This document shows, piece after piece, positions 8,333 to 63,734 of a stretch of DNA of 64,000 nucleotides. The notes under the pieces are model-generated. The model was not told the DNA's origin, did not search any database, and saw only the letters and a list, made by a program, of their open reading frames with translations. Source of the DNA: a virus; the IMG/VR virus record IMGVR_UViG_3300019360_000002, positions 19,536 to 83,535 of that record. One strand, written 5' to 3'. The translations under genes were made by a program, and so were the position numbers. Numbering within the stretch: position 1 is the first letter of the stretch; each line of letters opens with the position of its first letter.

Positions 8333-8345
8333 TTGCGATGCGCAA
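8333..8345. repeat. 13-bp palindrome with start codon in the loop
   Basis: TTGCG-ATG-CGCAA. The three-base loop is the ATG of the following gene, and GGAG lies just upstream. If folded in RNA the start codon would sit in the hairpin loop; if bound as DNA, a protein would cover the start. The same layout recurs at 46986 on the other strand. Confidence 0.85.
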
Positions 8346-8628
8346 TAACAGCTCGCCTGAAGAACACGCGCGCCGCGCCACCGAGGCAGAACGCAAGCTG
8401 GCAATCGAGGCCAGCTACTTCGACTCCTCGCGCATGGCGTACGCCGGCCTCACCCACTACGAGCTGTTTTGTCTGGAGCTGGGCGTGCTCGACGAGTGTT
8501 TGCGTTCAACAGGCAGCGTTACCGCCGTTGACGAAGCTCGCCTCGCCAGGTGGAACAAGGTCCGCGAAGTGATGCACATGAAGCTGAGACAAGCGCTCGG
8601 AAACAACGTCATGCCGGGACAGCGCTGA
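8338..8628 (+). CDS. Helical hypothetical protein
   Basis: 96 residues; ATG lies inside a 13-bp palindrome, with AGGAG five bases before. Composition is charged and helical throughout, with an internal LTHYELFCLELGVLDE stretch. The stop overlaps the next start (TGATG). No family recognised; follows the third fibre gene. Confidence 0.6.
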   Translation: MRNNSSPEEHARRATEAERKLAIEASYFDSSRMAYAGLTHYELFCLELGVLDECLRSTGSVTAVDEARLARWNKVREVMHMKLRQALGNNVMPGQR

Positions 8629-8864
8629 TGCCCCGCCCGATCATCAGCTACGCGCCCCCGTCCCACCACGGCGTCACCACCCTCATGGCGGTAGGCAAGG
8701 ACGACGCACCCGAAGGAGACGCCATCTACTTCGACGCGGGCCGCGCCGTCAAGTACGCCGTCATCGGCGGCGCCGTGGGTGCGGTACGCGGCGGCCGGCG
8801 CACGACGAGCTACGCCCTCGTGGCCGCCGGTCTATCCCTCCTCGCCAACGCCTTCGGCAAATAA
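8628..8864 (+). CDS. Small protein with two C-terminal hydrophobic segments
   Basis: 78 residues, starting in TGATG overlap. Residues about 44-55 (YAVIGGAVGAV) and 63-75 (YALVAAGLSLLANAF) are hydrophobic and separated by RGGRRTTS, giving a short membrane hairpin. The first 35 residues are polar. Could be a membrane-associated virion protein or a holin-like protein; no homology recognised. Confidence 0.55.
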   Translation: MPRPIISYAPPSHHGVTTLMAVGKDDAPEGDAIYFDAGRAVKYAVIGGAVGAVRGGRRTTSYALVAAGLSLLANAFGK

Positions 8865-8867
8865 TAG

Positions 8868-8896
8868 TTGACACGTCCCTGCCGCCCTGGCAGGCT
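8868..8896 (+). promoter_or_regulatory. Putative promoter TTGACA-N17-CAGGCT
   Basis: Consensus -35 TTGACA at 8868-8873, 17-base spacer, -10 CAGGCT at 8891-8896, matching the TANNCT-type -10 of other promoters here. Transcription would start near 8903, leaving a roughly 85-base leader before ATG 8989. The leader contains a strong hairpin, GCACC-TTCG-GGTGC (8941-8954). Confidence 0.5.
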
Positions 8897-8988
8897 CTCC
8901 TCTGCCGGGTCGTTGGCTCTGGGTTATCTCCGTAAAGAATGCACCTTCGGGTGCTCTCCCAGACCGCTTTTATCCGGCACCCTTTCTC

Positions 8989-9579
8989 ATGGGCTACGAA
9001 GCGACGCCACTACTCCGACCTCCTGCGATCGTTCGCGCCTTCGTGCCCGCTCTGCCTGGTAGCCTCTGGTCGCGCCTCGCCGTCGACTACGTGCGGGCTT
9101 TGCCGGACGTGATCCCGACGATGCTTCTCTCCCACCACTTGACGCCGCTGGCGATGCCGCCGTGGGACGAGTTCGCGCACCTGTTCTTCGGCACGGTGGG
9201 ATCGTGGTACGTGAACGTGGTTTTCGACGATCGCGACAAGCAGACCTTCGTCGAGCCCAGGATGATGCCGCCGCCCGAAGAGACCGAGTTCGCCATGGCG
9301 GAGGGCAGCGTGACCGCGCCGTGGCTGCCAGAGACCACACGCCCTCCGCTCTGCAAGTTCTGGACGGCTGGCGTCCCCAATATCCTCATCACCCGACCGC
9401 AGGGCAGGCCGCTCTCCACCGACGAGAAGACCATGATCGGCAAGTACGCGGCCGTGGTCACCGATATCGAAGCCGCCGTCGCCTCGATGGAGAAGGCGCT
9501 CGACCGACGCGTCTACACCTCACTGAACGTAGTCATAGAAGCCGAATTGCGATCCGCAACCGCCGGGGGTGCTCCGTGA
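8989..9579 (+). CDS. Hypothetical protein
   Basis: 196 residues. Behind the promoter at 8868, with no clear ribosome binding site next to ATG 8989. The middle contains a Trp/Phe-rich stretch (WDEFAHLFFGTVGSW) and the C-terminal third is helical. No family recognised. A perfect 13-bp palindrome (9547-9559) overlaps its last codons. Confidence 0.55.
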   Translation: MGYEATPLLRPPAIVRAFVPALPGSLWSRLAVDYVRALPDVIPTMLLSHHLTPLAMPPWDEFAHLFFGTVGSWYVNVVFDDRDKQTFVEPRMMPPPEETEFAMAEGSVTAPWLPETTRPPLCKFWTAGVPNILITRPQGRPLSTDEKTMIGKYAAVVTDIEAAVASMEKALDRRVYTSLNVVIEAELRSATAGGAP

Positions 9580-9753
9580 GTCTGGAAAAACTTCAAGACC
9601 GCCACGTCACCGTCTTCTTCAAGGACTGCTCACGAGGGCGTCCTGCGCAAGCTCGCTCACCACGATCGTGCCTGGTGCGTCGAGGTGGAGAAGGACGGCA
9701 AGCTGTATCAGGTGCAGTTCCTCGACTGGGTTCCCTTAAACATCGTCGGCTAG
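9576..9753 (+). pseudogene. Small gene with apparent frameshift
   Basis: GTG at 9576 overlaps the upstream stop (GTGA) and reads VSLEKLQDRHVTVFFK. From about 9624 sensible coding continues one base out of frame as TAHEGVLRKL to KLYQVQFLDW and a stop at 9751-9753. Removing one G in AAGGACT (9621-9627) would give one intact protein of 58 residues. Either a base-call indel, a decayed gene, or +1 frameshifting. The next gene starts at 9763 with its own ribosome binding site. Confidence 0.5.
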
Positions 9754-9762
9754 GAGACCGCC

Positions 9763-10357: not shown

Positions 10358-11025
10358 TGCAGCGCATCGCTTTCGGCGGCCCCTGGTACCACTCCCAGGT
10401 CGACACCCGCCTCCTCATCTCCGTCGTCCAGCTCACGGGCACAGGCCCGCAGGTCGGTCTTCTACCCACGGTGCTATTGCCGGGCGACGGCATGCTCGAC
10501 CTCAGTCGTAACGTGCTCTTGGCCCAGGCGCTCGGCACCGACTGCGACTGGTACGTGTCGTTCGACGCCGACTGCTCCTTCATCGGCCAGATCGCTGCGC
10601 TTGCTACTACACTTGCGGAGCACAACCAGCCTAACGTGGCGTTGGTAGCGGCACCCGTACGGCTCGGGCAGAACTCGGTCTATAACGTTGTCCTCGACGA
10701 TCAGTGGCCGAGCTACACAGCCGAGATGGAGCGGCCAACGCTCGTGCAGGACGTGGCGCGCATCGGCTTCGCCTTCGTCGCGTTCCGTTTACAGTGGTAC
10801 CGCGAGAAGTGGCCCCGGATTGATGGCGGCACACCGCTCGACTACCAGACGTTCTTCCAGACCACGGTCGTGCCCGACGGGCATGGCAGCTTCAAGAGCA
10901 ACACCGAGGACTACTTCCACTGCGTCAAGGTCCACAACTTGGACGGGCGCATGGTGTGCGATCCGCGCCTCCGGGTCAAGCACCACATCGCAAGAGCCGG
11001 CTCGCCGGAGGCGGAGACAGAATAG
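10357..11025 (+). CDS. Glycosyltransferase-like protein (GT-A type)
   Basis: 222 residues, starting in TGATG overlap. Residues about 50-75 carry LSRNVLLAQAL followed by WYVSFDADC, a DxD-type motif preceded by beta-strand residues, as in family 2 glycosyltransferases that bind nucleotide sugar through a metal. Later SNTEDYFHC provides acidic residues like the GT-A catalytic ED. Phages use such enzymes to modify DNA, their own virion or host surface glycans; which applies here is not visible. Confidence 0.6.
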   Translation: MQRIAFGGPWYHSQVDTRLLISVVQLTGTGPQVGLLPTVLLPGDGMLDLSRNVLLAQALGTDCDWYVSFDADCSFIGQIAALATTLAEHNQPNVALVAAPVRLGQNSVYNVVLDDQWPSYTAEMERPTLVQDVARIGFAFVAFRLQWYREKWPRIDGGTPLDYQTFFQTTVVPDGHGSFKSNTEDYFHCVKVHNLDGRMVCDPRLRVKHHIARAGSPEAETE

Positions 11026-11651: not shown

Positions 11652-11664
11652 TTGCGAACCGCAA
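11652..11664. repeat. 13-bp palindrome upstream of RBS
   Basis: TTGCG-AAC-CGCAA directly after the TAA of the preceding gene and immediately before GGGGAGGACGAC, the ribosome binding region of the gene at 11682. Typical placement for the junction class of this repeat. Confidence 0.85.
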
Positions 11665-12517: not shown

Positions 12518-13139
12518 AGGTAACCGCGCAGTCGATCTTCGAGGAAGACGCTTCGGGCGTCTGCTCGCGATCAAAGAAACAAACAAACGCATGAATGGGC
12601 GAATCGCGTGGTTGTGCTTGTGCGACTGCGGGAAGAAAAAACTGGTCAGATCTTCCCACCTGATCGGCGGCCAAGTGCTTTCGTGCAAATGCCTGAGCCG
12701 AGAAATCGCATCCGCAGTCAACACCACGCACGGGCGTTCTAAGAGTCGGCTGTACGCGGTCTGGAACACGATGTGTGGACGCTGCCGCAACGCCGACAAC
12801 AAAAGCTACGGCGGGCGAGGAATTGCGGTTTGCAAGCGTTGGAGAGGTAGAGGCGGTTTCGTTAGCTTCGTAGCCGACATGGGCGAACCGCCGGCCGGTA
12901 TGACAATCGAACGCAAAGACAACGCCAAGGGTTACTCTCCTCCCAACTGCCGCTGGGCCACACCAAAAGAACAAGCCAGGAACAAGAGAACTACGCGCTA
13001 CGTCACGTTTCGTGGACAAACCAAGCCATTAATCGAATGGGCAGAAGAGCTTGGCCTGAACTACCAGAACACTCATCGCAGACTTTACGCGCGGGGCTGG
13101 TCGGTAGAACGCGCTTTTTCGAAAAAGGAGATGCCATGA
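12507..13139 (+). CDS. HNH endonuclease with N-terminal DNA-binding module
   Basis: About 210 residues. The first 60 carry a GRRFGRLLAI...CDCGKKK...LSCKCL module common in phage homing nucleases; the middle has a cysteine pair (CGRC), GGRGI and an ERKDNAKGYSPPNCRWAT core typical of HNH homing enzymes of the HNH/AP2-associated type. A C-terminal helix-turn-helix-like part follows. The start is uncertain: TTG 12507 is the only plausible start codon before the conserved region, overlapping dcd. Probably a free-standing mobile nuclease. Confidence 0.7.
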   Translation: MISRGNRAVDLRGRRFGRLLAIKETNKRMNGRIAWLCLCDCGKKKLVRSSHLIGGQVLSCKCLSREIASAVNTTHGRSKSRLYAVWNTMCGRCRNADNKSYGGRGIAVCKRWRGRGGFVSFVADMGEPPAGMTIERKDNAKGYSPPNCRWATPKEQARNKRTTRYVTFRGQTKPLIEWAEELGLNYQNTHRRLYARGWSVERAFSKKEMP

Positions 13140-14418: not shown

Positions 14419-15165
14419 GTGATCGAACACCTGGCCATGCGGTGGTGGCACCTCGACCAGCTCTCGGTCTCCGACCCCGAGATGCTGTGGTCGAACGTCC
14501 ACGAAGACGACAAGATTGCGGTTCGCAACCGCGTCTATTCGCTTCTGAATGGAGAGATCCTCCACAAGGACATGTCGCCGGCCGACAAGCTGGTGGCCAT
14601 CGGCAGAAAGCGTTGTGACGAAGACCTCGACGAGTTCGCGCGCAAGATCGACGACATGCTGCGCGGCGAGCCCGGCTGGGACGAGAGCATCAACCGAGTC
14701 ACGCGCTGGAGCAACTGGTGGGACAGCCTGTATGGGCAAAGCTGTAAAACCGTGTATCCACCACAGCCTCAGATCCAACAGTGCACGCGCCTGTTCGGCA
14801 ACACCAACATCGGCAACCTCGTTATCTGCAACCTTCAGGTCGCTGGACAACTTTGCTGTGATCAGGCGGCCTACCTTCGCTACTGGTACGTCGACACCAC
14901 GGTCTCTGAAGCCAATGCTGATGAGCTGGAAGAGGCGCTGCACAACAGCGTAGCCACGCTCATTATCGGCAACCGTCTTGCGGCACAACTCCCCTTGTCG
15001 GACCTCTTTTATAGCGTCCATCCGATCGACGAGATCTTGCCGACCAGGCAGAACTTTGCTGTCGAGATCTCGTGCTTCGGCCGAGCCAACGACATTCTGA
15101 ATAGCGCACTTCACAGTCCCCTGCGCGTCCACCTCGAAGGCGCCCACAAGCTCACGGTCTACTGA
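14419..15165 (+). CDS. Hypothetical protein
   Basis: 248 residues, GTG start four bases after the upstream stop. N-terminal half is helical and Trp-rich (RWWHLDQL, WSNWWDSLYG); the C-terminal half looks alpha/beta. A perfect 13-bp palindrome (14516-14528) lies inside, in a normal coding stretch. Stop overlaps the next ATG (TGATG). No family recognised. Confidence 0.5.
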   Translation: MIEHLAMRWWHLDQLSVSDPEMLWSNVHEDDKIAVRNRVYSLLNGEILHKDMSPADKLVAIGRKRCDEDLDEFARKIDDMLRGEPGWDESINRVTRWSNWWDSLYGQSCKTVYPPQPQIQQCTRLFGNTNIGNLVICNLQVAGQLCCDQAAYLRYWYVDTTVSEANADELEEALHNSVATLIIGNRLAAQLPLSDLFYSVHPIDEILPTRQNFAVEISCFGRANDILNSALHSPLRVHLEGAHKLTVY

Positions 15166-15379: not shown

Positions 15380-16297
15380 ATGACCGTACGCAAGCCCAAC
15401 GAGTCCGACATCGCCTACGCCCTGCGCGCCGCGCGTGAATTCGCGAGCGGCTTGTCGCAGTACGACGGCGTGGTGCTTCCGCAGGCTGCCTTCCGTCAGG
15501 CGCGCGACGTGATCGGCATCATCGGAGAGGCGGAGGGCTGGCACACCAACCACAAGGCCGAGAAGGCGCGCGAGGTCGAGGAGGCCCGTAGGGCGGGCTT
15601 TCACTGCGCCACGCCTACGCTGTGTGGATCGTGTGGCCCGGACTGCGGGGGTCGAAAGAAGGTCGTCAACCTCACCCACGCCGGCCAGCTCGCGGGCGTC
15701 CTGCCGCCCGACCCTGACCACGCAAAGGACTGCCGCTGCGTCGTGTGCACGGGCAACGCGCGGCCGTTCCAAGGCGCTTGGGGCAAGCTGGCACCGCCGA
15801 TCGCGGTGCCGAAGCGACCCGAGTCGACGCTCAACTACGGCAAGGAGCTTGCGAGTCGCGAGTTCAGAACGATCGAAGAGCTGCACGAGTGTTTGACTGC
15901 AAACGCGCAACGTTTGCAAGATCCGATGATCCACTTCTTCACCAGGGGGGAGCAGACTGCCAGCGGACTGTGGCAAAGGGTAGCCGACAACTACCCCAAG
16001 GCGAAGCTCCTCGGCGTCACGATCGTCGGGTTCGGTCTTCAGGTCAGACCCCACGATGTCGACGGCACGTTTCAGGTGCTTCACCGCATGGGAGAAACAC
16101 TCGTCCCGATCCTGGACATGCCTTCGTCGTACGGTGCGGCGGCGTTGTCTGTGCCGATCCACATCGACGCGGAGAAGGGCGCGGACAAGTTCGTCTGTCG
16201 TTTCACGCGTCGTGCGCACCCAGAAAAGAGCCCGGACATCGTGCCCACGTTTATTCGAGCCACGGCCAAGCTGGAGTGCCACTACAGCCAGGAGTAG
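15380..16297 (+). CDS. Hypothetical protein, leaderless
   Basis: 305 residues from ATG 15380, which is placed by the promoter geometry. Residues 70-125 contain a cysteine-rich block (CGSCGPDCGG, CRCVVC) suggesting a zinc site; the rest looks alpha/beta without known motifs. It starts a new transcription unit that continues through the two small membrane proteins and an HNH gene. Confidence 0.55.
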   Translation: MTVRKPNESDIAYALRAAREFASGLSQYDGVVLPQAAFRQARDVIGIIGEAEGWHTNHKAEKAREVEEARRAGFHCATPTLCGSCGPDCGGRKKVVNLTHAGQLAGVLPPDPDHAKDCRCVVCTGNARPFQGAWGKLAPPIAVPKRPESTLNYGKELASREFRTIEELHECLTANAQRLQDPMIHFFTRGEQTASGLWQRVADNYPKAKLLGVTIVGFGLQVRPHDVDGTFQVLHRMGETLVPILDMPSSYGAAALSVPIHIDAEKGADKFVCRFTRRAHPEKSPDIVPTFIRATAKLECHYSQE

Positions 16298-16504: not shown

Positions 16505-16800
16505 CGACGCCATCGAGACGCAGGCGCGTGTCGCGTAAGGGACCGGAGAAGGAACGGCGTTCGACCACGGTCAAGCTGGAGCGGCGCAAGAAGCCTCGTC
16601 CGCCCAGGCCGGAGCCGCTGCCGCAGTTGCCGCCAGGAGCCGACATCGACGGCGTGTTCACGGGCGAAGGCGACCTCGAACTCGCGCTGGCCGTGCGGCC
16701 TCGTCTGCGCATGGTCTTCCACGGCATGCCGACGTTCGAAGACATCGCCATCGTGCTCGCGACCGCAGCCTTGCTGGTCGCAAGAAGGAGTCTTGCGTGA
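16501..16800 (+). CDS. Basic protein with C-terminal hydrophobic segment
   Basis: 99 residues, ATGA overlap. The first 40 residues are strongly basic (Arg/Lys), followed by a Pro-rich stretch and a C-terminal hydrophobic run (IAIVLATAALLVA). Could bind nucleic acid or acidic lipid at a membrane. No family recognised. Confidence 0.45.
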   Translation: MTTPSRRRRVSRKGPEKERRSTTVKLERRKKPRPPRPEPLPQLPPGADIDGVFTGEGDLELALAVRPRLRMVFHGMPTFEDIAIVLATAALLVARRSLA

Positions 16801-17459
16801 GGTGGTGTTCGGTCTGCATGCAAGAGATCCCGGGCGAAGCGAAGCCTTTGCGCGTCGTGCGTCTGGTCGGCCGATATGCCTACACTCTGTGCGTGTGCTG
16901 CGGTCAGAAACCACGAGACCACAAGCGCGTTCATTATCGCAGCCGTTTCCGAAGATGGGTGAAGACCCATCTGATCACCGTAGAGGAGCCGCCCAAGCAG
17001 AGGCGCAGGGACTCGGTGTGCTGCACAGGTGCCTGCGGAACCGGCACGCCGGTCGGAGAACAATGCAAAGCCTGTCACGCACTCCGACGTGTCGCCGTTG
17101 ACAAGACGAGTAGGTTGTACCAACCGATTGTTCGTGCGCAAAAAGCGGGGCTGCCGGCCACTTTGACCATCGAAGAATGGGACCTAACTCTTGATCGTTT
17201 CGATCGGTCTTGCGCGTACTGCGGTGCGCCCTGGGTGGTGCTCGAACACGCACAACCCATTGCGCTGGGCGGCGGTACCACGGCCGACAACTGCTTGCCG
17301 GCGTGCCGAGTCTGCAACACCCGCAAACGCGACACGGCCTTGACCGCTCTTGCGACTCTCAAGCACTACCCTGGGACCAAGGTGCCGGTAGACAGGGTGC
17401 GCGTGAAGGCCGCCCTGGTGTGGCTGAAAGCCTGCCAACGCCTTGCTGTGGGCAGGTAG
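16797..17459 (+). CDS. HNH endonuclease
   Basis: 220 residues. GTG start with AAGGAG six bases upstream. A one-mismatch palindrome (16771-16783) precedes it. The C-terminal half has CAYCG...EHAQPIALGGGTTADNCLPACRVCNTRK, the canonical HNH core with four zinc cysteines. The N-terminal half has additional CxxC pairs. Likely a homing or recombination-type nuclease. Confidence 0.75.
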   Translation: MRWCSVCMQEIPGEAKPLRVVRLVGRYAYTLCVCCGQKPRDHKRVHYRSRFRRWVKTHLITVEEPPKQRRRDSVCCTGACGTGTPVGEQCKACHALRRVAVDKTSRLYQPIVRAQKAGLPATLTIEEWDLTLDRFDRSCAYCGAPWVVLEHAQPIALGGGTTADNCLPACRVCNTRKRDTALTALATLKHYPGTKVPVDRVRVKAALVWLKACQRLAVGR

Positions 17460-18398: not shown

Positions 18399-19361
18399 AT
18401 GACCAAGAAGAAGCCCACAGCGCTGGTACCGGCCGCACCTGCCCCACTTGCGCCTCGCAATCTCTTCCGCGCGGACAAGCGCACGCCCGAGGAGAAGCTC
18501 GAAGACGCACTTGCGTCCCTGTGGCAGACCCTTGGTGAGAGCGCCGACACCGCCCGTGCGTACAAGTACGACTGGGGCGTGTGGACCAAGTGGCTCGCCG
18601 AGCACGGCGGTACACCGCTCGAAGCCCGTGCGGTCCACGTGCAGATGTTCTTAAACCACATGCGCGAGCGGGGCTTAGCCAAGTCGACGCGGGCGCGCAT
18701 GCTCTCGGTGCTGAAGCAAGTGTACGCCGCCTTGGTGGTCGGCGAGGCCCTCGACATGAACCCAGCGCGCGAGGCGAAGAACCTGCGCGTGGACTCGACG
18801 CCGAAGGCGCCGTGGCTCGTCGACACCGAGCTGGCCAAGCTCCTCGCCTACCCGAACCGCTCAACGTGGATTGACCGGCGCGACTGGCTCGTGCTCTGCG
18901 TCCTCATCGGCACGGGTTTGCGGCGCAAAAACGTCGCCACCTTGGCCGTCGAACAGCTCGTGCCCGCGCCCGGCGGCGGTATGGCCGCGAACGTCAAGGC
19001 CAAGGGCGGCAAGCAGGCGTCGATTCGCGTGCCGAGCTGGCTCGCCGAAGAGCTGCTTGCCTGGATTGCGGACCGCAAGATCGAGTCTGGTTCGCTATTC
19101 GACATCTCGCCGGGCACAGTCTACAACATCGTCAAGCGCACAGCGGCGCGGGTGGGGGTCTCGGTCGAGCGTTCGACGCCACACGCGATGCGTAGGTCGT
19201 TCACCACCGAGACTGGTAACCGAGGCGTGTCACTTGAGTCGCGGCAGGCGGCGCTTCTTCACTCAAACCGCGCTACCACCGAGATCTACGACAAGGCCGA
19301 CCGGGCATCGAGCCAGGCTCCTGGAGAGGTGCTCGCTAACCTCGTGGGGAAAAGAAAATGA
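18399..19361 (+). CDS. Tyrosine recombinase / integrase
   Basis: 320 residues. N-terminal SAM-like core-binding domain (about 40-125) precedes the catalytic domain. Visible catalytic set: Arg in TGLRRKN (~171), Lys in KAKGGKQ (~203), HAMRRSF (~264-270), His in LLHSN and Tyr in TEIYDKA (~299). All are present, so the enzyme should be active in integration, excision or resolution of genome multimers. Two perfect 13-bp palindromes lie in the gene (18448, 19076). No attachment site was identified. Confidence 0.88.
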   Translation: MTKKKPTALVPAAPAPLAPRNLFRADKRTPEEKLEDALASLWQTLGESADTARAYKYDWGVWTKWLAEHGGTPLEARAVHVQMFLNHMRERGLAKSTRARMLSVLKQVYAALVVGEALDMNPAREAKNLRVDSTPKAPWLVDTELAKLLAYPNRSTWIDRRDWLVLCVLIGTGLRRKNVATLAVEQLVPAPGGGMAANVKAKGGKQASIRVPSWLAEELLAWIADRKIESGSLFDISPGTVYNIVKRTAARVGVSVERSTPHAMRRSFTTETGNRGVSLESRQAALLHSNRATTEIYDKADRASSQAPGEVLANLVGKRK

Positions 19362-21611: not shown

Positions 21612-21624
21612 TTGCGGCTCGCAA
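21612..21624. repeat. 13-bp palindrome upstream of RBS
   Basis: TTGCG-GCT-CGCAA, two bases after a stop codon and directly followed by GTGGAGGACAG, the ribosome binding region of the 21638 gene. Confidence 0.85.
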
Positions 21625-22836: not shown

Positions 22837-23408
22837 ACGCGACCCAGCGGAAGCAAGCCCGCAAGCAGAAGCGCCTCATCAATCTCGGTCGCGATGCGGC
22901 CGTCCACATCGCGGCGGCCGAGGCCGGCGCACAGCACGCCCTCGATCTGCTCGCGAACCGGGACGCGGTGCTGTCCGCGACCCTGGGCAAGGCCAAGACC
23001 CTCGAAGAAGCGGTCATGCTCGCGCGCGTGGAGGCGACCAAGGTCCAGGCCGCTCGCGACGAGGAAACCCGGCAGCACCGAGTGGAGCTGGCGGCCCTGG
23101 AGGACGCGCACAAGCTCACCATGGCCACCACGGTGTTCGAGATGGAACAAAAGCACGAGCGCAAGAGGTTCGAGATAAACGGGCACTGGATCGCGGACCA
23201 ATGCCAATACGAAACAACAATCCAAAACCTCCGGCTGAGAATGGACGAGCTGGAGGAAAAAGCCGAAGAGCCGGCCAAGCTGCGCAGGCGCCTGGCCGAG
23301 AAGCAGAAGCACATCGAAGAGCTTCAGACCGAGGTCTCGCAGCTCAAGTTGCGAGTCGCACCCGAGTCCGTACACGTGCCCTTCATCAACAGGAGGAAGG
23401 CCCAATGA
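22833..23408 (+). CDS. Long coiled-coil protein
   Basis: 191 residues, ATG in ATGA overlap, GGAGGGG upstream. Basic first 20 residues, then helical throughout, with clear heptads in 60-120 and 130-175 (Glu/Lys/Leu/Gln). Likely a structural or scaffold protein. A one-mismatch palindrome lies at 23349-23361. Confidence 0.55.
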   Translation: MNATQRKQARKQKRLINLGRDAAVHIAAAEAGAQHALDLLANRDAVLSATLGKAKTLEEAVMLARVEATKVQAARDEETRQHRVELAALEDAHKLTMATTVFEMEQKHERKRFEINGHWIADQCQYETTIQNLRLRMDELEEKAEEPAKLRRRLAEKQKHIEELQTEVSQLKLRVAPESVHVPFINRRKAQ

Positions 23409-24366: not shown

Positions 24367-25091
24367 TTCGTGAACACCCCGTCGTATAGCCCACGCAGAC
24401 TCTCGTTCTCCTCCAAGATCTCACGCACCTCTTCCACGTCGTCCGAGAGCGGCTCGCTGGCGTCCTCGGGCGACACCTCGTCCGAGACCTGCGATGACTC
24501 CGACCGCACCTCGTTCGCCTCGTCGCGGTCCTCGCGCTCTTCATCCATGGCGCGCTCGGACTCCAGCTCGCCGGGGCTCACGTAGCGGATGCCATTCGAC
24601 ACGCCGCGCCTGCGGCCGTTCTTGCCGTTCCGATAGCCGCTCAGGCCCGTCTTTCCGCCGGCCACGCTCGGCGCAGTCATCACAGGCTGGCCGTCGATGA
24701 GGCCGACGAGACCAGGCAGGTAGGTCTGGAGGAGCGATTGAAAAAGCGCAATGGCGGAGCCGATGAGGATGGGCTCCTGGTACTTGCGAGCCTTCTCCCA
24801 CTTGTTGGCGGCGTACCAGAGGCCGATGAGGGTCGCCAGGCTGCCGAGGGGGCCGAAGTGCCGGGCGAACCGACCACCGGCAAGGCGCTGGCCGAGGAGC
24901 ACCCGGCCGAACTTGCCGCCCAGGCGGGTGACGGCGTAGCCGCCGATGCCGGGGCCGACCATCATCGCCATGCCCGTGGCCATGTCCATGGCCTGGGACG
25001 CCGGGTTCTTGCGATGCGCAACCGGCTGTCTGCGCGCGTTACGGAACGACGCCAGCTTGCTTCGCGAGGCCGCAGACTTTTTCTTGGACAT
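24363..25091 (-). CDS. Multi-pass membrane protein
   Basis: 242 residues starting at ATG 25091 (MSKKKSAAS), chosen over longer readings because GGGGAGAA lies just upstream and a promoter fits at 25151-25180. Basic first 30 residues, then hydrophobic segments near 36-55, 77-95 and 103-130, and a long acidic C-terminal tail. Terminal gene of the leftward unit. A perfect palindrome with ATG loop (25009-25021) lies in its 5' part. Function unknown; could be a virion or host-membrane protein. Confidence 0.6.
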   Translation of the reverse strand: MSKKKSAASRSKLASFRNARRQPVAHRKNPASQAMDMATGMAMMVGPGIGGYAVTRLGGKFGRVLLGQRLAGGRFARHFGPLGSLATLIGLWYAANKWEKARKYQEPILIGSAIALFQSLLQTYLPGLVGLIDGQPVMTAPSVAGGKTGLSGYRNGKNGRRRGVSNGIRYVSPGELESERAMDEEREDRDEANEVRSESSQVSDEVSPEDASEPLSDDVEEVREILEENESLRGLYDGVFTN

Positions 25092-25198: not shown

Positions 25199-25387
25199 TT
25201 ACTTGCGACTGGCAAGGCTCTTGGCAAACAGGTCTTGGCACACAACACAGGCGGCCAAGACATCCCCAAAATTAGCGTGGGAGCAGTGATCGCAGAGCCA
25301 CTTGGAGATGATCTTGTAGCCGTCGCCGTAGATGTGATGCTCGGTGGCTTGGCGATCAAAACATCGCTGGCACCTGCGATAGCCCAT
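25199..25387 (-). CDS. Small zinc-finger protein
   Basis: 62 residues. CQRC (6-9), CDHC (32-35) and CVVC (47-50) with nearby histidines suggest one or two zinc sites. A one-mismatch palindrome (25203-25215) overlaps its last codons. Unknown function, possibly a small HNH-like or regulatory zinc protein. Confidence 0.5.
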   Translation of the reverse strand: MGYRRCQRCFDRQATEHHIYGDGYKIISKWLCDHCSHANFGDVLAACVVCQDLFAKSLASRK

Positions 25388-28963: not shown

Positions 28964-28976
28964 TTGCGAGTCGCAA
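28964..28976. repeat. 13-bp palindrome upstream of RBS
   Basis: TTGCG-AGT-CGCAA between the Nudix stop (28992) and the GGGAGGACGA ribosome binding site of the 28951 gene on the minus strand. Confidence 0.85.
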
Positions 28977-43070: not shown

Positions 43071-43217
43071 TTGAGCGCGATGGCCGGGTTAGGCGTGTGG
43101 AGGACGACTTCCGGGAGGCGCTAGGAAAAGAGTAGCAAGTGCCCAGGGTTTGGTCAATGCGAAAGCGGACTTGCGAAGCACAAGTGGAAGCCTTTAGACT
43201 ACGAGCCGGAGGGACCC

Positions 43218-46993: not shown

Positions 46994-46998
46994 CGCAA
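46986..46998. repeat. 13-bp palindrome with start codon in the loop
   Basis: Plus strand TTGCG-CAT-CGCAA; on the minus strand the loop is the ATG of the 46993 gene. Second case after 8333. Confidence 0.85.
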
Positions 46999-48356: not shown

Positions 48357-48579
48357 GGTGCACCTTGGTCGCAGCGAAGGCTGCCGTAAGTACGAGGACG
48401 AGGAGGATCAGCACTGCGGTTGCGAGGCGCAAGGCGGTCCTGTCCGGCGGCCGGTAGGTGGTGGGTGCACCGTCGAGCCAGGTGGTCTCGGACATGTGGA
48501 AAGCGAGCGTCCGCGAGAGGATCTGCTCGCGGGTCTTCTTGGATGCCTTGCGTTCCTCGTACGACAGGTTTTCGGACAT
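48274..48579 (-). CDS. Single-pass membrane protein, holin/spanin candidate
   Basis: 101 residues with GGAGGGCAATC upstream. Charged first 45 residues, membrane segment 52-71 (LRLATAVLILLVLVLTAAFAA), then a short polar end. It overlaps the M23 gene by 83 bases in another frame, an arrangement seen in lysis cassettes. Holin, inner spanin or other role cannot be told apart. Confidence 0.5.
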   Translation of the reverse strand: MSENLSYEERKASKKTREQILSRTLAFHMSETTWLDGAPTTYRPPDRTALRLATAVLILLVLVLTAAFAATKVHHDVRQPGSETEFRGERVGGPSPVSWRR

Positions 48580-49374: not shown

Positions 49375-49794
49375 TCACCTCCGCCCCAAAACACGAGCAA
49401 GCATGGAGGAGATTGTCGGCGCCACGGCCCTCACCCCGTTTAGGATCTCCAGGAGCCACGGGTACGGCTCGACCTGGACCGACACCCGCTGAAGCGAGTC
49501 GGATGCGATGTAGAGACGCGTGAGCGGCACCATGACGATCTTCACATCTTCGTCCGCCGGCAGGAGGCGGCCCTTGCCGCTGCCCACTGGCATCAGCTCT
49601 TCCTGGTTGCCGACAGAGACCGGCCCCGGGCTTTCGAGTCGCAAGGTGATGAGCGACCAGTTGGGCAAGGACAGGAGCAGATCGGTCTGTCCTGGCGTGG
49701 TGAACACCGTGTAGATGTTGGTGGCGATACCGGTGTACAGATCGGGGCCGGTCGTGCCTGGCTGAATCGGAGTCTTCGTCGGAATCGGACCCAT
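49375..49794 (-). CDS. Virion-like hypothetical protein
   Basis: 139 residues, beta-rich with Pro/Thr-rich start (GPIPTKTPIQPGTTGP) and a helical end. Three bases separate it from the 49371 gene, so they are co-translated. A one-mismatch palindrome (49632-49644) lies inside. Unknown function. Confidence 0.5.
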   Translation of the reverse strand: MGPIPTKTPIQPGTTGPDLYTGIATNIYTVFTTPGQTDLLLSLPNWSLITLRLESPGPVSVGNQEELMPVGSGKGRLLPADEDVKIVMVPLTRLYIASDSLQRVSVQVEPYPWLLEILNGVRAVAPTISSMLARVLGRR

Positions 49795-49796: not shown

Positions 49797-50465
49797 CTAC
49801 CTCCAGATGAGGAGCGCCAGGCCGGCTGCGGCGATGAGGCCGAATCCGAAGCCTGGCGAGCGCGGCAGCACCACGCCCTTGGGGAGCGCGTAGGTGATGC
49901 CGGCTGGGGCCGGTACCATGACCGGCACCCCTACGGTTGGGAAGGCGATCTGAGCGCCTTCATTCCACAAGGTTTCCACAGAGGTAGTGCGAGCCAGGAC
50001 TTTGCCAGCAGGATAACCGGACACGGTGACGTTCGGGTGTGCCTTTACGTACGCAAGCAGGGTTGGAAAGTGCGCCGAGCCGACGAGTGCTACCAGCTTG
50101 GTGACGGCGCCGATGCCGAGCGCGAATACGAGCCGCGCCATCTTCCACTGCTCGGGTGAGCCAGGCACAATGACCGGATAGCGAACCGCAATTCTGGCTG
50201 CCTCGATGTTGTACTCCAGGCCGGCGAGAAAGATGTTGCCCTCTGGGTCCTTGCGGACCTCGGGGTTTACGCCTACGGTGCGCGGGAAGCTTTCTGTAAT
50301 TTGGTAGTAACCAGCCTCTCCTAGACGAGGATCACCAGTGACCATGCGACCAGAGGATTCGTGGTCGGCAATGGCCGCAAAAAAGCCGACTGGCATGCCG
50401 CCACGATAGCGGTCAAGCTCGACACGATGCTGATCGTAGAACTTCTTGGCGCCAGAAACCGACAC
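49797..50465 (-). CDS. Lytic transglycosylase with C-terminal membrane anchor
   Basis: 222 residues, GTG start. AAIADHESSGRMVTGDPRLGEAGYYQITESFP carries the catalytic Glu (in HESSG) and the GYYQI motif of SLT-type transglycosylases. The tail GFGFGLIAAAGLALLIWR is a membrane segment. A membrane-anchored wall-cutting enzyme of this design occurs in internal-membrane phages such as PRD1 (P7), making entry through the wall a likely task. Confidence 0.8.
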   Translation of the reverse strand: MSVSGAKKFYDQHRVELDRYRGGMPVGFFAAIADHESSGRMVTGDPRLGEAGYYQITESFPRTVGVNPEVRKDPEGNIFLAGLEYNIEAARIAVRYPVIVPGSPEQWKMARLVFALGIGAVTKLVALVGSAHFPTLLAYVKAHPNVTVSGYPAGKVLARTTSVETLWNEGAQIAFPTVGVPVMVPAPAGITYALPKGVVLPRSPGFGFGLIAAAGLALLIWR

Positions 50466-54346: not shown

Positions 54347-54729
54347 GTTTGTGTCTCCTCTCCTAGATCCTTCCACAGTTTCTTGCCCAGCCGAAATGCT
54401 GCCGTGTTGCCGTTCGCGCACGCCTCGTCGCCGTCGAAGCCTTGCAGGTACGAGATCACCCAGTCGAGGTCTACGCCGAGCGCCTCGGCGACCATCTCTT
54501 CGAGAAGGAACTCGCTCGTGAGCACGGCGGTGGATTCCTTCTCGGAGAGCAGGCACGCACACACCGGGCACACCTTCGGCGTCTTGGCCATCTTGCCGGC
54601 GGTCTTGGTGCAGCCGTCGTAGGTGCCGCAGGCGCCCTGGCACAGGCGCTTGCCCTGCTTGCCGACCTTCTTGATTGCGGCTCGCAAGTAATTGTCGGCG
54701 GCGAGGTCGGAGTAGCTCGCTTCGCTCAC
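54343..54729 (-). CDS. Cysteine-rich hypothetical protein
   Basis: 128 residues, GTG in GTGA overlap. CQGACGTYDGC and CPVCAC form a likely zinc module in residues 30-60, followed by a helical acidic half. A perfect palindrome (54675-54687) lies near its 5' end. Unknown function. Confidence 0.5.
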   Translation of the reverse strand: MSEASYSDLAADNYLRAAIKKVGKQGKRLCQGACGTYDGCTKTAGKMAKTPKVCPVCACLLSEKESTAVLTSEFLLEEMVAEALGVDLDWVISYLQGFDGDEACANGNTAAFRLGKKLWKDLGEETQT

Positions 54730-55470: not shown

Positions 55471-56457
55471 CTACTCGGCGGCCTTCTTGCCCTTCTTGCC
55501 CTTCTTGCCGCCCTCGCCGGCCGCCCACTCCTTCGCCTTGGCCGCCGCCTCCTTCGCCTTCTCCTTGGCGTTGGCCTCGGCCGCCTTCACGAAGTCCTTC
55601 CAGTCCGAGCCCATGCGGCCGAGCGCGATGGAGCCCTGGGCGAAGCGCAGGGTGTCGAACACGCCCTGCACGTAGTCGGTGCGCTTGACCTCCTTCTCGT
55701 CGGTCTCGTCGACGATCTGGACCATGGCCTTCAGGATCTTCGTCCCCGGGCGGTCCGACTTGCCCGCCTTCGCCTTGGCGGCCTTGCGTGCCTTCGACTT
55801 GCCCGACCGGCCGCCCGAAGCGATCGCCTTGAGCGCCTCGTCGACGCCCTCCTCCTGCGTGTCGAAGTCGTACTTGCCGGGCTTGTCGTCCTCGCCCTCG
55901 ACCCACTTGGCGGTCTTGGCCAGGGTTTCCACCGTGTCATCGGCGAGCTTGCCCGACTTCCACGCCTTCTTGAGCGCCGGGCCGCACTTCTCCAGGGCGT
56001 CGAGCTTGCGCGACACCCAGGTCTCCGACTTGTGGAGCGCCTTGGCGATGGTCTTCTGGTTGTCGCCCATGAGCTTCAGCTCGGCGCACTGCACCGCGAT
56101 CTCGTACGAGGAGAGCGCGTCGCGCAGGATGTTGTCGGCGAGGGCGTTGTAGCGCGCGTCCTTGAGCGTGTCGCCGGAGACGAAGTGGCACGGCACGCCC
56201 TGGGAGAAGCCGTTGGCGCGGCCTTCCTCGATGAGCAGGGTGATCGCGGCCTCGCGGCGGAAGCCGCCCACGAGCACCATGATCTCCTCGCCGTCCTTCT
56301 GCGTCTTCCACACCTGGAGCGGGTTCAGAAGCCCCCGCGCCTCGATGTCGTCGGCGAGGTTCTTGATGTCCTCCAGCTTCTCGCGCGGGTTCTTGAAGCC
56401 GACCTCCTCGCCAGGGGTCAGCTCGTCGAGCTTGATGGTGTCGTAGTTTGAATCCAT
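55471..56457 (-). CDS. ParB/KorB-like DNA-binding protein
   Basis: 328 residues from ATG 56457 with GGAGGACG upstream. ParB-type nucleotide-binding part: RGLLNPLQVW (41-50), VLVGGFRREAA (61-71), ADNILRDALSSYEIA (107-121, cf. EN.xR..L...E.A), then an HTH at about 132-155. The lysine- and alanine-rich C-terminus differs from chromosomal ParB. KorB-type proteins bind 13-bp palindromes scattered over a replicon and both segregate DNA and silence genes; a 13-bp palindrome lies just upstream of this start. Candidate reader of the TTGCG-N3-CGCAA sites. Confidence 0.8.
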   Translation of the reverse strand: MDSNYDTIKLDELTPGEEVGFKNPREKLEDIKNLADDIEARGLLNPLQVWKTQKDGEEIMVLVGGFRREAAITLLIEEGRANGFSQGVPCHFVSGDTLKDARYNALADNILRDALSSYEIAVQCAELKLMGDNQKTIAKALHKSETWVSRKLDALEKCGPALKKAWKSGKLADDTVETLAKTAKWVEGEDDKPGKYDFDTQEEGVDEALKAIASGGRSGKSKARKAAKAKAGKSDRPGTKILKAMVQIVDETDEKEVKRTDYVQGVFDTLRFAQGSIALGRMGSDWKDFVKAAEANAKEKAKEAAAKAKEWAAGEGGKKGKKGKKAAE

Positions 56458-56816: not shown

Positions 56817-57143
56817 TCACGGGTGTACCTGAGAGACTTGCGGCTTGCAACTCTTTTTTGCCTTGTTCTTGAAGATTCTGATGCGTGTGTGCCCCCTGGC
56901 CGTTTTGCCTTGTGCAAGGTTTCTTTCGCGACGTTTCTTGTGGTTAGTGCGGCTGTTTCGTGCCTTGGCGACGAGGTACGCCTCGTAGTCCATGGTGCCT
57001 ACCTGGCTCGAAAGCGTCCGACACTGAAAGCGTTTCCCTTCGGGGGCGCTGGCATCGAACCTGATGCCGAGATTCCCGCAGGAGGCGAAGATCATGTCCC
57101 CGACGGAGAACACCCTCAGGTCGTCGAGCGCGGCGGCCAGCAC
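56817..57143 (-). CDS. Hypothetical protein with basic tail
   Basis: 108 residues, GTG sharing TAGTG with the upstream stop. N-terminal half alpha/beta (VFSVGDMIFASCGNLGIRFD); C-terminal half very basic (Arg/Lys), possibly nucleic-acid binding. A one-mismatch palindrome (56838-56850) overlaps the last codons. Confidence 0.5.
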   Translation of the reverse strand: MLAAALDDLRVFSVGDMIFASCGNLGIRFDASAPEGKRFQCRTLSSQVGTMDYEAYLVAKARNSRTNHKKRRERNLAQGKTARGHTRIRIFKNKAKKSCKPQVSQVHP

Positions 57144-57443: not shown

Positions 57444-58517
57444 CTACGCCGCCTTCTTGGTCACGTCGTAGGCGACGGACATCATGTCGAAGCGCTTGTC
57501 GGCGTCCGACTCCTTGCCGGCCAGCCAGGTGAGCGCGTTCGCCATGCGCCACATAGAGTTGCCCGGCGGCAGGTTCTCCACGTCGGCACCGTTATAGCAA
57601 TCGATCACCTCCTTGGCCTTGCCGGCGCCGAGCTGCTTCTTCAGGAATTCCTGCATCGACTTCGGCTCCACCTCCTTGTCGTGCGCCGCCTTGATGAGGT
57701 TCATGCGCTCCTGGATCTTGTGGGGCGAGAGGTACCCCTTGATGGCGTCGTGAACCATGCTCGCGCTCCGGTCGGTGTCGAGCTTGTAGGTCCTTGACGA
57801 CCAGATCTCCTCGTCCTCCAGGCGACCGCCCAGGTGGACCTGGCGAAGCGTCTCCTCGCCGGTCATGCCGTTCGCGCACTTGACGCGCAGGATGTACTCC
57901 TTGAGCGTGTGCGCGCCGTTGCCGAAGTCGGAGTTCTGCCACGAGTACCCCAGGCACATGAACTCGCCGGGGATCGGCTCGTAGATGGTGGGCAGGAGGA
58001 TCTGGATCGACACCCGGGTGTCGTTGAAGATGCCGTCCGTCGGCAAGGCGCCGACCGCCTGGCACGCCTTGGCGATGTTGTCCACGATGGGCCGCGAGTC
58101 GAGTCGGCGGAACTTGTTCGAGAGCAGCGCCCGCATCTCGCTCGCGTACGAGCGCGTGAGGTACTTGGTGGTCTTCTGGTGCGCGAACACCGTCCGCAGG
58201 TTGTGGGCGAGCAGCTCGTTGCCCCAGGCGTCATCCGGTTGGTTGCGAGTCGCCAGCTCCCTGGCGTACTCGCCGGGGATGCCGGCGCGCTCCATCACCT
58301 GGCCCCAGGCGTTTCGGTGGAGCCGCTCGCGCTCCACCGACTCCGGGACGCGGAAGAAGATGCCGCTCTCGTCGGCCTCGAAGTTCAGAGCGGTCGCCTT
58401 GACGATTCGGTCCTGGGGAACCTCGTTCTGGATCTTCTCCATCACCAAGATGGCGTTCTTGCGCCCCCTGTCGATGATGCGCTGCAACACTGCTTTCATT
58501 TCGGCCTTGGTGCTCAT
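57444..58517 (-). CDS. DUF932-like phage/plasmid protein
   Basis: 357 residues, GGAGGACGAC upstream of ATG. Pattern of the DUF932 family is recognisable: LLAHNLRTVFA, LTRSYASEMRALLSNKFRRLDSRPIV and FMCLGYSWQNSDFGNGAHTLKEYILRVKCANGMTG. Widely found on phages and plasmids, of unproven function. A one-mismatch palindrome lies at 58243-58255. Confidence 0.75.
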   Translation of the reverse strand: MSTKAEMKAVLQRIIDRGRKNAILVMEKIQNEVPQDRIVKATALNFEADESGIFFRVPESVERERLHRNAWGQVMERAGIPGEYARELATRNQPDDAWGNELLAHNLRTVFAHQKTTKYLTRSYASEMRALLSNKFRRLDSRPIVDNIAKACQAVGALPTDGIFNDTRVSIQILLPTIYEPIPGEFMCLGYSWQNSDFGNGAHTLKEYILRVKCANGMTGEETLRQVHLGGRLEDEEIWSSRTYKLDTDRSASMVHDAIKGYLSPHKIQERMNLIKAAHDKEVEPKSMQEFLKKQLGAGKAKEVIDCYNGADVENLPPGNSMWRMANALTWLAGKESDADKRFDMMSVAYDVTKKAA

Positions 58518-58592
58518 GTCGTCCTCCTGGTTGGTGCCTGATCCGTTGTTGATACTACTTGCGAGTCACAAGCTAGGCAAGAAAAATTTGTT

Positions 58593-59827: not shown

Positions 59828-60094
59828 TTACTTCTTTCCGGGGCGCACTTGGCGCTCCCCGTTGAACTTTGTCTCGGGGGCGAATGAATCGCCTGCCTTT
59901 TTCTCGCACTTGTCGAGTGCTCGCTTGAGCGCCTCGTAGAGCGAGTTTCCCGAGCCCACGTAGTGGCCGAGGTCTTGACGGCTGTCGAGGGAGATCGTCC
60001 ACAGATTGCCGGTCGCAACTGCCGTCATCATGAGACCGTGCTTGGTGAGGAGCTTGTCGAGATCCTCGATGCGACTTTCGGGCGTGAGAAACAT
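59828..60094 (-). CDS. Hypothetical protein
   Basis: 88 residues from ATG 60094. Helical and charged with a WTISLDSRQDLGHYVGSG stretch. Starts close to the upstream stop at 60097. Unknown function. Confidence 0.5.
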   Translation of the reverse strand: MFLTPESRIEDLDKLLTKHGLMMTAVATGNLWTISLDSRQDLGHYVGSGNSLYEALKRALDKCEKKAGDSFAPETKFNGERQVRPGKK

Positions 60095-61266: not shown

Positions 61267-61560
61267 TCACTTCCCCTCTTTCTTCTCGCCCTTGCAGTGC
61301 TTGATATGCTGATGCACGCCTTGTGGCCGGAAGAAGACTCGGCCGCACTTGTGGCACGACGCCTTGACCTCCCGGGTCTTCGGCGTCTTCTTCGCCTTCT
61401 TCTTCGGCTTGCGAGTCGCAAGCCCCGGGGAATTCAGGATGGTGTCGAGCGAAACCCCGGCTTGCGCCTCGAAGATTCCCGGACCGCGCATGATCGTAAG
61501 CTGCGAAACGGCCGCGATGATCACCGCGCCGCCGACCTTGTACATGTACGTTTTCATCAT
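61267..61560 (-). CDS. Membrane-anchored C2H2-type zinc-finger protein
   Basis: 97 residues, GGAGGACGC upstream. Residues 4-22 are hydrophobic (YKVGGAVIIAAVSQLTI), then a lysine-rich linker and a single finger CHKCGRVFFRPQGVHQHIKHC with C2H2/C2HC spacing. Such fingers are rare in phages. Could hold nucleic acid or a host protein at a membrane. A perfect palindrome (61409-61421) lies inside. Confidence 0.55.
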   Translation of the reverse strand: MMKTYMYKVGGAVIIAAVSQLTIMRGPGIFEAQAGVSLDTILNSPGLATRKPKKKAKKTPKTREVKASCHKCGRVFFRPQGVHQHIKHCKGEKKEGK

Positions 61561-61582
61561 TTGCGTCCTCCAGGACTGCGAA

Positions 61583-62096: not shown

Positions 62097-62098
62097 CT

Positions 62099-62233
62099 TC
62101 AGACCTCTCGCGTGACGCGATAGTTTCCCTCGTAGTCAGTGCTCCACTCGGCCACAAGACCTGAGACGAGGTTTTTGCCTCGAAGCGTTGTGCGCGTACC
62201 AACGGTTGCGACTGATTCTTTGAGGGAGTTCAT
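62099..62233 (-). CDS. Small hypothetical protein
   Basis: 44 residues, ATG 62233 with a strong AGGAGGCAACC ribosome binding site, TGA at 62099-62101. Beta-rich; ends YEGNYRVTREV. The ribosome binding site and lack of other coding in the gap support it. Confidence 0.55.
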   Translation of the reverse strand: MNSLKESVATVGTRTTLRGKNLVSGLVAEWSTDYEGNYRVTREV

Positions 62234-62242
62234 GGTTGCCTC

Positions 62243-62959
62243 CTACGTGTGGATCGACCAGTCCGGCTTCTCATCCGACCCGTGATTGATGACGCCGCCG
62301 TTCATGCTTCGTATACCTTTCGGCGTGCGAATGTCGAAGTAGTAGCCGGCCGAATCACGGTGTAGGTTGACCACGGCCGACTCCCACACGTTGAACGTGG
62401 TGTTGCGTGCGATACGCTTGAGCTGGTCCAGCTTGTCACGGAGCCCTTGGTCGGTAGCGGCTCGCGTGAGCGCGTCGGTGCCGTGCGGGTCTACGTTCAC
62501 GCAACCCTTGGCTTGTCCGTAGCGTTCGAGTAGGCGCCGCCACGTCCGCTTGGGGATCTCGACCTCGTGCTCCGTCCCCTTGGGGGCACGATCCAAGTGC
62601 TTGAAGTGCCACCTTGCGAGTCGCAAGATGATCTTCTGTACCTGATACGGCATCGAGACAACCCGGAAAGGGATGTCGGCGCGTCCCGTCGTGGCTTGGG
62701 GCATCTCCCAGTCGAAGAAGGTCCACTGTTCGCCGTCGTGCTTGCACAGGTGGTAGCCGTCTACCGACATCGCTTGCTTGCCCGCGACCACGTGTTTGAA
62801 CTCGGCGCGCGTCCAGTAGAAGTACACCGACGCCATCGGCACTGGCGGACGCGGGTCATCGCGGGGGAGGTTGTACTCTGGGGTGTGCGCCCGCAGGATC
62901 ACGTAGTCGGCGCCATCCGCCTTGCGGAAGGTGAAAATGACGGTCTCGAAGTCGAGCAC
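62243..62959 (-). CDS. Hypothetical protein
   Basis: 238 residues, GTG start. Alpha/beta with several aromatic motifs (VYFYWTRAEFKHVV, WTFFDWEMPQ) and helical C-terminal third. A perfect palindrome (62614-62626) is internal. No family recognised. Confidence 0.5.
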   Translation of the reverse strand: MLDFETVIFTFRKADGADYVILRAHTPEYNLPRDDPRPPVPMASVYFYWTRAEFKHVVAGKQAMSVDGYHLCKHDGEQWTFFDWEMPQATTGRADIPFRVVSMPYQVQKIILRLARWHFKHLDRAPKGTEHEVEIPKRTWRRLLERYGQAKGCVNVDPHGTDALTRAATDQGLRDKLDQLKRIARNTTFNVWESAVVNLHRDSAGYYFDIRTPKGIRSMNGGVINHGSDEKPDWSIHT

Positions 62960-62961
62960 GA

Positions 62962-63246
62962 CTACACGAGCCCCGCGCGACGAAGAAGGTCAAGCGCCTT
63001 CGCAGCACTTGCCGGACGCTCCAGCGCCAGCTGGTCTTCGCGAGGCGCGTCTTTGATCGCGTCTCCACAAGCGTTGCTGATAGCCCACCAACGCCTGGCG
63101 GCGATCTTGGTGCCGTCTGCCCACGACGGTGGAGGACCCATCGCTGCGTACGCCACGCATGTGTTACGGTTGTGATAGTCGAGGACTTCGGCTTCTGCAT
63201 CCGATAGCACCCGCGACAGCTCTTCGTCGGTTAGCTTCGTCTCCAT
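62962..63246 (-). CDS. Hypothetical protein
   Basis: 94 residues from ATG 63246 with GGAGGCGTGACG upstream. Helical, with a CVAYAAMGPPPSW centre. Unknown function. Confidence 0.45.
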   Translation of the reverse strand: METKLTDEELSRVLSDAEAEVLDYHNRNTCVAYAAMGPPPSWADGTKIAARRWWAISNACGDAIKDAPREDQLALERPASAAKALDLLRRAGLV

Positions 63247-63248
63247 CG

Positions 63249-63734
63249 TCACGCCTCCTTGTAGAGCCGCTTCGCGTTGAACTGATCGCGCGTGCCCAGG
63301 TTCCACTTTTGGATCGTGCGCCCGTAGTTGTTCACGCCCAGCTCGTAGTCGTACTCGGTGCGCCGACCCCAGTCGGCCTTGCGCATGTACATCGTGCCAA
63401 CCGTCTCCATCGGGCGAGTGAACACGTCTGCGGACACGTGCAGCTTGTCGAGCACGTCGTTCACCACGTTGTGGAACGCCACCCAGTCGTCCCACTCCAA
63501 AAAACGCGTCGTGCGCTTCTTGCGCCCGTTCAGTTCGCACGGGCCGGGGTGCTGGCCGCAGTACGGCTTGGGCGTGACGAGGCGCACCGAACGCACCTCA
63601 ATGAGCTTGCCGCAGTTGGTCAAGTCGCAAGTGAAGCGACCGTCCTTGCGAATCGCAAGCGCAAGCGCATCGAAGACGCACTCACACAGCGAGCCGATCG
63701 CCGCGTGCGGCGCAGGTTTGATGGTGTAGGGCAT
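63249..63734 (-). CDS. Cysteine-containing hypothetical protein
   Basis: 161 residues, GAGTAGCCC upstream. N-terminal part has CECV, CDLTNC and CGQHPGPC, a probable zinc module; the rest is alpha/beta. A perfect palindrome (63646-63658) is internal. Unknown function. Confidence 0.5.
   Translation of the reverse strand: MPYTIKPAPHAAIGSLCECVFDALALAIRKDGRFTCDLTNCGKLIEVRSVRLVTPKPYCGQHPGPCELNGRKKRTTRFLEWDDWVAFHNVVNDVLDKLHVSADVFTRPMETVGTMYMRKADWGRRTEYDYELGVNNYGRTIQKWNLGTRDQFNAKRLYKEA

Follow-up and report, generated by a model that had tools for sequence, protein, structure and literature searches.

A 13-bp interrupted palindrome, TTGCG-N3-CGCAA, is dispersed over a 64,000-nucleotide stretch of viral DNA (hereafter, the window), positions 19,536-83,535 of the 83,535-bp IMG/VR record IMGVR_UViG_3300019360_000002, here called the source genome (G000). 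Sequence comparison with other viruses leads us to conclude that these palindromes are probably the operator or clamp-loading sites, dispersed genome-wide, of the phage's own self-regulating ParB/KorB-like protein.

The first and last 123 bases of the record are identical, forming a terminal repeat, so that the genome is probably complete and either circular or circularly permuted. It includes an integrase gene that itself contains two perfect copies of the palindrome (Table 1). Gene calls come from an in-house codon-model script, and start positions are therefore approximate. When 25 kb of the window was compared with isolate phages by megablast, and 4.4 kb by blastn, no close relative at the nucleotide level was detected.

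Enrichment, symmetry and spacing of the palindrome

Perfect copies recur about every 1-3 thousand letters over the whole genome. The window holds 24 of them, between positions 8333 and 63658, exactly as reported in a preliminary description of this DNA, compared with 0.20 +/- 0.45 in dinucleotide shuffles; the chance expectation of about 0.06 copies given in that description has to be raised to about 0.2. When one mismatch is allowed, the count rises to 44 against 3.9 expected, and the 20 one-mismatch copies slightly exceed the 18 or so noted earlier. The whole record contains 31 perfect copies, against a single match to the reversed pattern used as a control, and 59 near-matches with at most one mismatch, against 4.9 in order-2 Markov sequences. 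Among interrupted palindromes with arms of 4-6 bp and gaps of 0-11, this one ranks first in the window by enrichment; the second, CGGAAC-N9-GTTCCG, was rejected as a tandem repeat resembling clustered regularly interspaced short palindromic repeats (CRISPR), which is not dispersed.

A genome of high G+C content, with proteins rich in arginine and alanine, might generate such a pattern through composition or codon usage, or the motif could be imposed by the host, through restriction-modification or a nucleoid protein; we find either origin hardly credible. When synonymous codons were shuffled within genes and letters within intergenic stretches (n=300), perfect matches averaged 0.85 and never exceeded 4, against the 31 observed. 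This contradicts an artefact and bears out the earlier proposal that the motif is enriched beyond codon-matched random sequence. Restriction, for its part, would deplete the motif, not enrich it.

The three central bases, previously described as free, are constrained: over 62 half-sites, position 6 is A in 36, C in 13, G in 13 and T in none. Given this bias and the C that flanks the arm in 30 of the 62 half-sites, the consensus is longer, close to the 15-bp dyad cTTGCGaNtCGCAAg (the motif is also written TTGCGNNNCGCAA and, as a site form, TTGCGANTCGCAA). The central A.N.T is dyad-symmetric, preferred in the source genome and fixed in relatives, and for this reason a role at the RNA level, originally put on a par with one at the DNA level, is not favoured. 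TTGCG-NNN-CGCAA would be able to form a 5-bp stem with a triloop in mRNA, serving, for example, processing or attenuation, but the centre is not a free loop, any one genome keeps the arm letters fixed, without covariation, and both strands of genes bear copies, making RNA hairpins very improbable. A search of Rfam identified no RNA family.

As stated in the preliminary description, copies lie in both coding and junction positions; the different frames attributed to them proved to be two of the three (13 and 6 copies fully within genes), the third, which would force a cysteine codon, containing none. About a third of the near-perfect sites are intergenic, whereas intergenic DNA makes up 15% of the genome; such DNA is enriched 2-4 fold for sites, yet most sites are inside genes. 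The sites are also more evenly spaced than in simulations that kept the intergenic/coding split: the coefficient of variation (CV) of spacing for the 59 sites is 0.63 against 1.00 simulated, and none of 3000 simulations was as low.

Palindromes of the same geometry in related viruses

The relatives, nine further viral records 23-86 kb in length, were reached only through a 209-aa capsid-like protein encoded outside the window (L016:16466-17092; the prefix L016 marks coordinates outside the window and w those within it); several of them also have terminal repeats. Capsid relatives were further detected, in a scan of genome collections, in three proteobacterial metagenome-assembled genomes, one of which was searched with a family ParB and gave no match. 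Single-sequence searches of viral contigs with ParB, PolA and primase likewise returned no matches.

TTGCG-N3-CGCAA itself is nearly absent from the family relatives (0-1 copies in each), a concern anticipated in the preliminary description, but unbiased per-genome palindrome discovery revealed that each family genome with a ParB-like gene has its own dispersed 13-bp dyad, in which the geometry is kept and the letters are changed. These dyads are TTGCCANTGGCAA in G004, G005 and G006 (14 sites each with at most one mismatch, 0.03-0.17 expected) and TTKCCANTGGMAA in G003 and G007 (15 and 13 sites, respectively, <0.5 expected; the form in G007 is also written TTTCCANTGGAAA), along with the sets of G002 and G009 discussed below. 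The outer C...G is common to many. Two incomplete fragments, G001 and G008, in which no ParB homologue was detected, have no such palindrome set. CGCCG-type palindromes, which rank high in G+C-rich relatives, were set aside as compositional and not 13-bp, and the strongest palindrome of G002, CTCAAG-N9-CTTGAG, was rejected as part of a CRISPR-like array.

Even spacing extends to G003, G004, G005 and G006 (p 0.001-0.02); the CV in the five best-populated family genomes is 0.50-0.63 against ~0.95 (p 0.02 to <0.001), and G007 and G009 tend the same way (p 0.07-0.08). The letters of the dyad thus change between relatives, whereas the parB-like gene that the phage itself encodes retains a site (described next), which also speaks against a host-imposed motif.

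A ParB/KorB-like protein as the candidate reader of the sites

Residues 23-318 of the 328-aa protein encoded by the parB-like gene align with PHROG 1033, annotated as "ParB-like partition protein" (E=3e-18), and a phmmer search matched the protein to Spo0J (E=7e-6). Its AlphaFold2 (AF2) model, which has a mean predicted local distance difference test (pLDDT) score of 62 and is good only over the DNA-binding part, found Spo0J, Noc, ParB and KorB as all of its best PDB matches in Foldseek, with a TMt of about 0.62 to the KorB DNA-binding domain 1r71. The boxes that surround the nucleotide pocket of ParB proteins, NPR and GxRR, do not vary among the eight family proteins, and the homologue from G010 (see below) has both. 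The KorB protein of IncP plasmid RK2 carries a variant second box (GARRYR) and still hydrolyses cytidine triphosphate (CTP) (PMC11790492); in a survey of the ParB-CTPase fold, the fold was reported in phages, with atypical nucleotide use in some (PMC12704722).

The ParB-like protein is common to all eight genomes with a dispersed palindrome set and to the source genome. We scored every orthologue cluster found in five genomes or more, 66 in all, by whether a site lay no more than 250 bp upstream, and the ParB-like gene came out on top, with a site in 7/7 genomes, against a background of 3-8% of genes per genome (26% in the source genome); because G004 and G005 are close kin, 7/7 represents fewer than seven independent events. 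The site in G002 is a perfect TTGCAACTTGCAA about 190 bp upstream of the gene. A capsid-like gene ranks second (6/6 genomes, site about 20 bp upstream), and the network therefore also reaches structural genes.

A profile of ParB proteins identified one further phage genome, G010 (sequence L086/L084; 58 kb, with a lower G+C content of 52%), which shares with the family only the ParB-like protein (blastp E<=1e-5). This genome has ten dispersed, mostly intergenic TTTGC-N5-GCAAA sites, against 0.03 expected, and in nine the palindrome extends to AGTTTGC-N5-GCAAACT. At the head of what is presumably the parB operon, one site is upstream of a gene that is followed, in the same orientation, by the ParB-like gene. 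The core TTGC-N5-GCAA is identical in G010 and the source genome, as is the recognition-helix motif KSETWVSR, which reads RSExWxSK in the other genomes. Of all the arguments that the ParB-like protein reads the sites, G010 provides the strongest, and together with the 7/7 upstream sites it substantiates the initial suspicion that fell on this protein. In the distant isolate phage MT835558, four copies of GGTGTCC-N5-GGACACC, one of them at its ParB-like gene, are suggestive only.

From these observations, we infer that the protein binds the sites, uses CTP and has a repressive effect. A ParB-like dimer would recognise the dyad cTTGCGaNtCGCAAg through its KorB-type helix-turn-helix, and through the copy immediately preceding the parB-like gene the protein would control its own production. 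The remaining ~30 perfect sites (59 with one mismatch), evenly spaced, would load the protein for action across the genome: at promoter-proximal sites transcription would be repressed, and from intragenic sites, by analogy with KorB, a sliding clamp could reach and repress promoters at a distance.

Several observations weigh against this interpretation. The Pfam KorB match (E=2.6e-4) falls just under the curated cut-off, as does ParB_N, and the use of CTP is uncertain because the AF2 model is of low confidence in the N-terminal domain. In G002, the set of eight TTGAANNNTTCAA sites (0.3 expected) is weak and its motif was picked after looking; G009 has a weak TTGCC-type set (14 sites within two mismatches, 1.8 expected), and its site upstream of the ParB-like gene is weak as well. 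Two isolate phages with more distant ParB-like proteins, a Microcystis phage (31 of 44.5 kb searched) and an Edwardsiella phage, yielded no clear dispersed motif, and the specificity classes are too few for a formal covariation test. The reader could conceivably be a second DNA-binding protein.

The sites could also serve primarily to coat, condense or segregate the genome in the manner of centromeres, as in ParB-parS and Noc, repression being secondary. The even spacing in the five best-populated genomes and the location of most sites inside genes, expected of loading stations rather than promoter operators, agree with this possibility, which we nevertheless consider unlikely: the intergenic enrichment and the sites kept upstream of the parB-like and capsid-like genes point to regulation, and pattern searches found neither a ParA-like P-loop gene (KGGxGKT-type) in any of these genomes nor the ParA-binding motif [LFI]G[KR]G[LFI] in any of the nine ParBs. 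As no phage-encoded ParA was seen, classical partition is unlikely. Even spacing does raise the possibility that coverage of the whole genome is itself the point. It is a tentative and rather doubtful extension that a ParB-family clamp, loaded from even stations without ParA, would form a virus-specific chromatin that silences or shields the genome, in which spacing and geometry would be kept while letters and protein drift together.

The gene at 57444-58517 (-), near the ParB-like gene of the source genome, matches PHROG 1362, of unknown function (E 6e-34); in Edwardsiella phage ZHS, a DUF932 gene is also close to parB.

Comparison with known systems

The core of the KorB operator (OB), TTTAGCSGCTAAA, spans 13 bp with TT...AA ends, and its half-site letters differ from those of TTGCGNNNCGCAA in the source genome. 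Both systems combine a ParB-family protein that has a KorB-type DNA-binding domain with dyad operators dispersed over the replicon, one of them at the regulator's own gene (18 nt upstream in the source genome). They differ in that RK2 is a conjugative plasmid and the replicon studied here a phage; the C-terminal regions differ as well, and sequence identity is very low, about 19% in the structure match. Neither IncC/ParA (by pattern search) nor a recognised KorA partner was found in the source genome; a small helix-turn-helix protein (w42748-42978) with a weak PHROG repressor match is a candidate KorA-like partner by size only. RK2 has 12 KorB sites, according to the title of a reference cited in PMC5577506, against up to 31 perfect and 59 near-perfect sites in the source genome. 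KorB is a CTP-binding protein that forms a closed clamp, and by sliding away from OB it silences promoters near and far (PMC11790492). The system of the source genome would work like KorB-OB, yet, with different site letters and with no ParA found by pattern search, it falls outside both the RK2 KorB regulon and the ParABS systems.

The preliminary description compared the pattern with KorB operators and with phage stoperators; the former likeness is supported and the latter is weaker. Stoperators of Cluster A mycobacteriophages such as L5 and Bxb1 are asymmetric, mostly oriented with transcription and bound by an unrelated immunity repressor (PMC6550527, PMC9283540). By analogy, a separate phage repressor, and not the ParB-like protein, could bind the sites and block elongation in lysogeny, given that many sites are dispersed in and between the genes of an integrase-bearing phage and that the consensus drifts between relatives, as it does in Cluster A (PMC6550527). 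We judge this improbable: the site of the source genome is symmetric, centre included, and the conserved upstream site belongs to the gene for the ParB-like protein, which is the sole protein shared with G010.

With chromosomal ParB-parS and Noc-NBS, the protein has in common the fold and the GxRR and NPR motifs and, with Noc, dispersed dyad sites. Unlike in those systems, the sites are spread evenly genome-wide and not clustered near an origin, their sequence is different, one lies at the protein's own gene, and ParA was not found. Full-text literature searches, with most subscription papers outside reach, produced no precedent for a KorB-like system in a phage or for ParB sites distributed over a phage genome.

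Table 1. The ParB/KorB-like gene and copies of the palindrome, in window coordinates
Feature	Position	Strand	Context or basis
ParB/KorB-like protein, 328 aa, proposed site reader	55471..56457	-	PHROG 1033, Pfam KorB, AF2 model
perfect site TTGCGGTTCGCAA	56475..56487	.	18 nt upstream of parB-like start; putative autoregulatory operator
perfect site	8333..8345	.	motif scan
perfect site	9547..9559	.	motif scan
perfect site	11652..11664	.	17 nt upstream of start codon
perfect site	14516..14528	.	within gene
perfect site	18448..18460	.	within integrase gene
perfect site	19066..19078	.	within integrase gene
perfect site	21612..21624	.	13 nt upstream of start codon
perfect site	25009..25021	.	within gene
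perfect site	26836..26848	.	gene 77 end / upstream of gene 76
perfect site	28964..28976	.	intergenic, 12 nt upstream of start codon
perfect site	31188..31200	.	within gene
perfect site	34299..34311	.	within primase/helicase-like gene
perfect site	35581..35593	.	within PD-(D/E)XK nuclease gene
perfect site	37153..37165	.	within gene
perfect site	38013..38025	.	within helicase-like gene
perfect site	39160..39172	.	intergenic, 25 nt upstream of start codon
perfect site	42018..42030	.	within gene
perfect site	46986..46998	.	overlaps gene 98 start
perfect site	48420..48432	.	intergenic
perfect site	54675..54687	.	within gene
perfect site	61409..61421	.	within gene
perfect site	62614..62626	.	within gene
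perfect site	63646..63658	.	within gene
one-mismatch site	1223..1235	.	motif scan
one-mismatch site	2068..2080	.	motif scan
one-mismatch site	6922..6934	.	motif scan
one-mismatch site	10613..10625	.	motif scan
one-mismatch site	12823..12835	.	motif scan
one-mismatch site	15849..15861	.	motif scan
one-mismatch site	16771..16783	.	motif scan
one-mismatch site	17350..17362	.	motif scan
one-mismatch site	23349..23361	.	motif scan
one-mismatch site	25203..25215	.	motif scan
one-mismatch site	29986..29998	.	motif scan
one-mismatch site	32814..32826	.	motif scan
one-mismatch site	41862..41874	.	motif scan
one-mismatch site	43171..43183	.	motif scan
one-mismatch site	49632..49644	.	motif scan
one-mismatch site	50179..50191	.	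motif scan
one-mismatch site	56838..56850	.	motif scan
one-mismatch site	58243..58255	.	motif scan
one-mismatch site	58559..58571	.	motif scan
one-mismatch site	60006..60018	.	motif scan

Other features of these viruses

The capsid-like proteins encoded at L016:16466-17092 and w48625-49371 have AF2 models that weakly resemble jelly-roll capsids, with matches that include VP16/VP17 of P23-77, all of them at E values of 0.001 or more. The proteins searched gave no match to a terminase, portal or tail protein, and these viruses are possibly a tailless family of about 80 kb. A run of small proteins encoded at L016:9057-19700 and w169-777 combine a hydrophobic stretch with a basic tail at the end (for example, ...LLLIGGGLLAAYLLFGRKRA), like membrane-anchored virion proteins.

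Another capsid-like gene, at L016:14244-15672, is apparently split around a LAGLIDADG-like open reading frame, whereas its paralogue at w14419-15165 is unsplit, judging from the translations; at L016:6616-8076, to judge from weak matches, an intein that carries a LAGLIDADG domain seems to interrupt a transglutaminase-like protein.

Eight CRISPR-like repeats of ~36 nt (GTCGGAACTTCTTCCCCGTTCCGCGGGGGTTGTCAC), mostly at 72-75-nt spacing, occupy positions 51592-52130 of the window and adjoin a gene for a 531-aa Cas12f/TnpB-like protein (52122-53717, -; Pfam PF07282, E 7e-6), and the two may together be a compact type V CRISPR system carried by the phage. In the relative G002, another CRISPR-like array lies at L025:17074-18437, and its repeat (GTCTCAAGGCatggaGCCTTGAGCAT...) is not the same.

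Implications

A single DNA-binding protein, which regulates itself, appears to be linked to sites throughout the viral genome. If the palindromes are indeed the sites of the ParB/KorB-like protein, the system would be a phage counterpart of the KorB regulon, in which a single self-regulating ParB-family protein acts from dozens of evenly spaced sites without ParA. The sister half-sites TTGCG, TTGCC, TTTCC and TTGAA would then make up a natural series for studying how the DNA specificity of ParB/KorB proteins changes, and one that also bears on whether clamp sliding from many stations controls or covers a whole genome. Many phages without ParA have a protein annotated as a "ParB-like partition protein", and for these proteins the same reading makes a concrete prediction.

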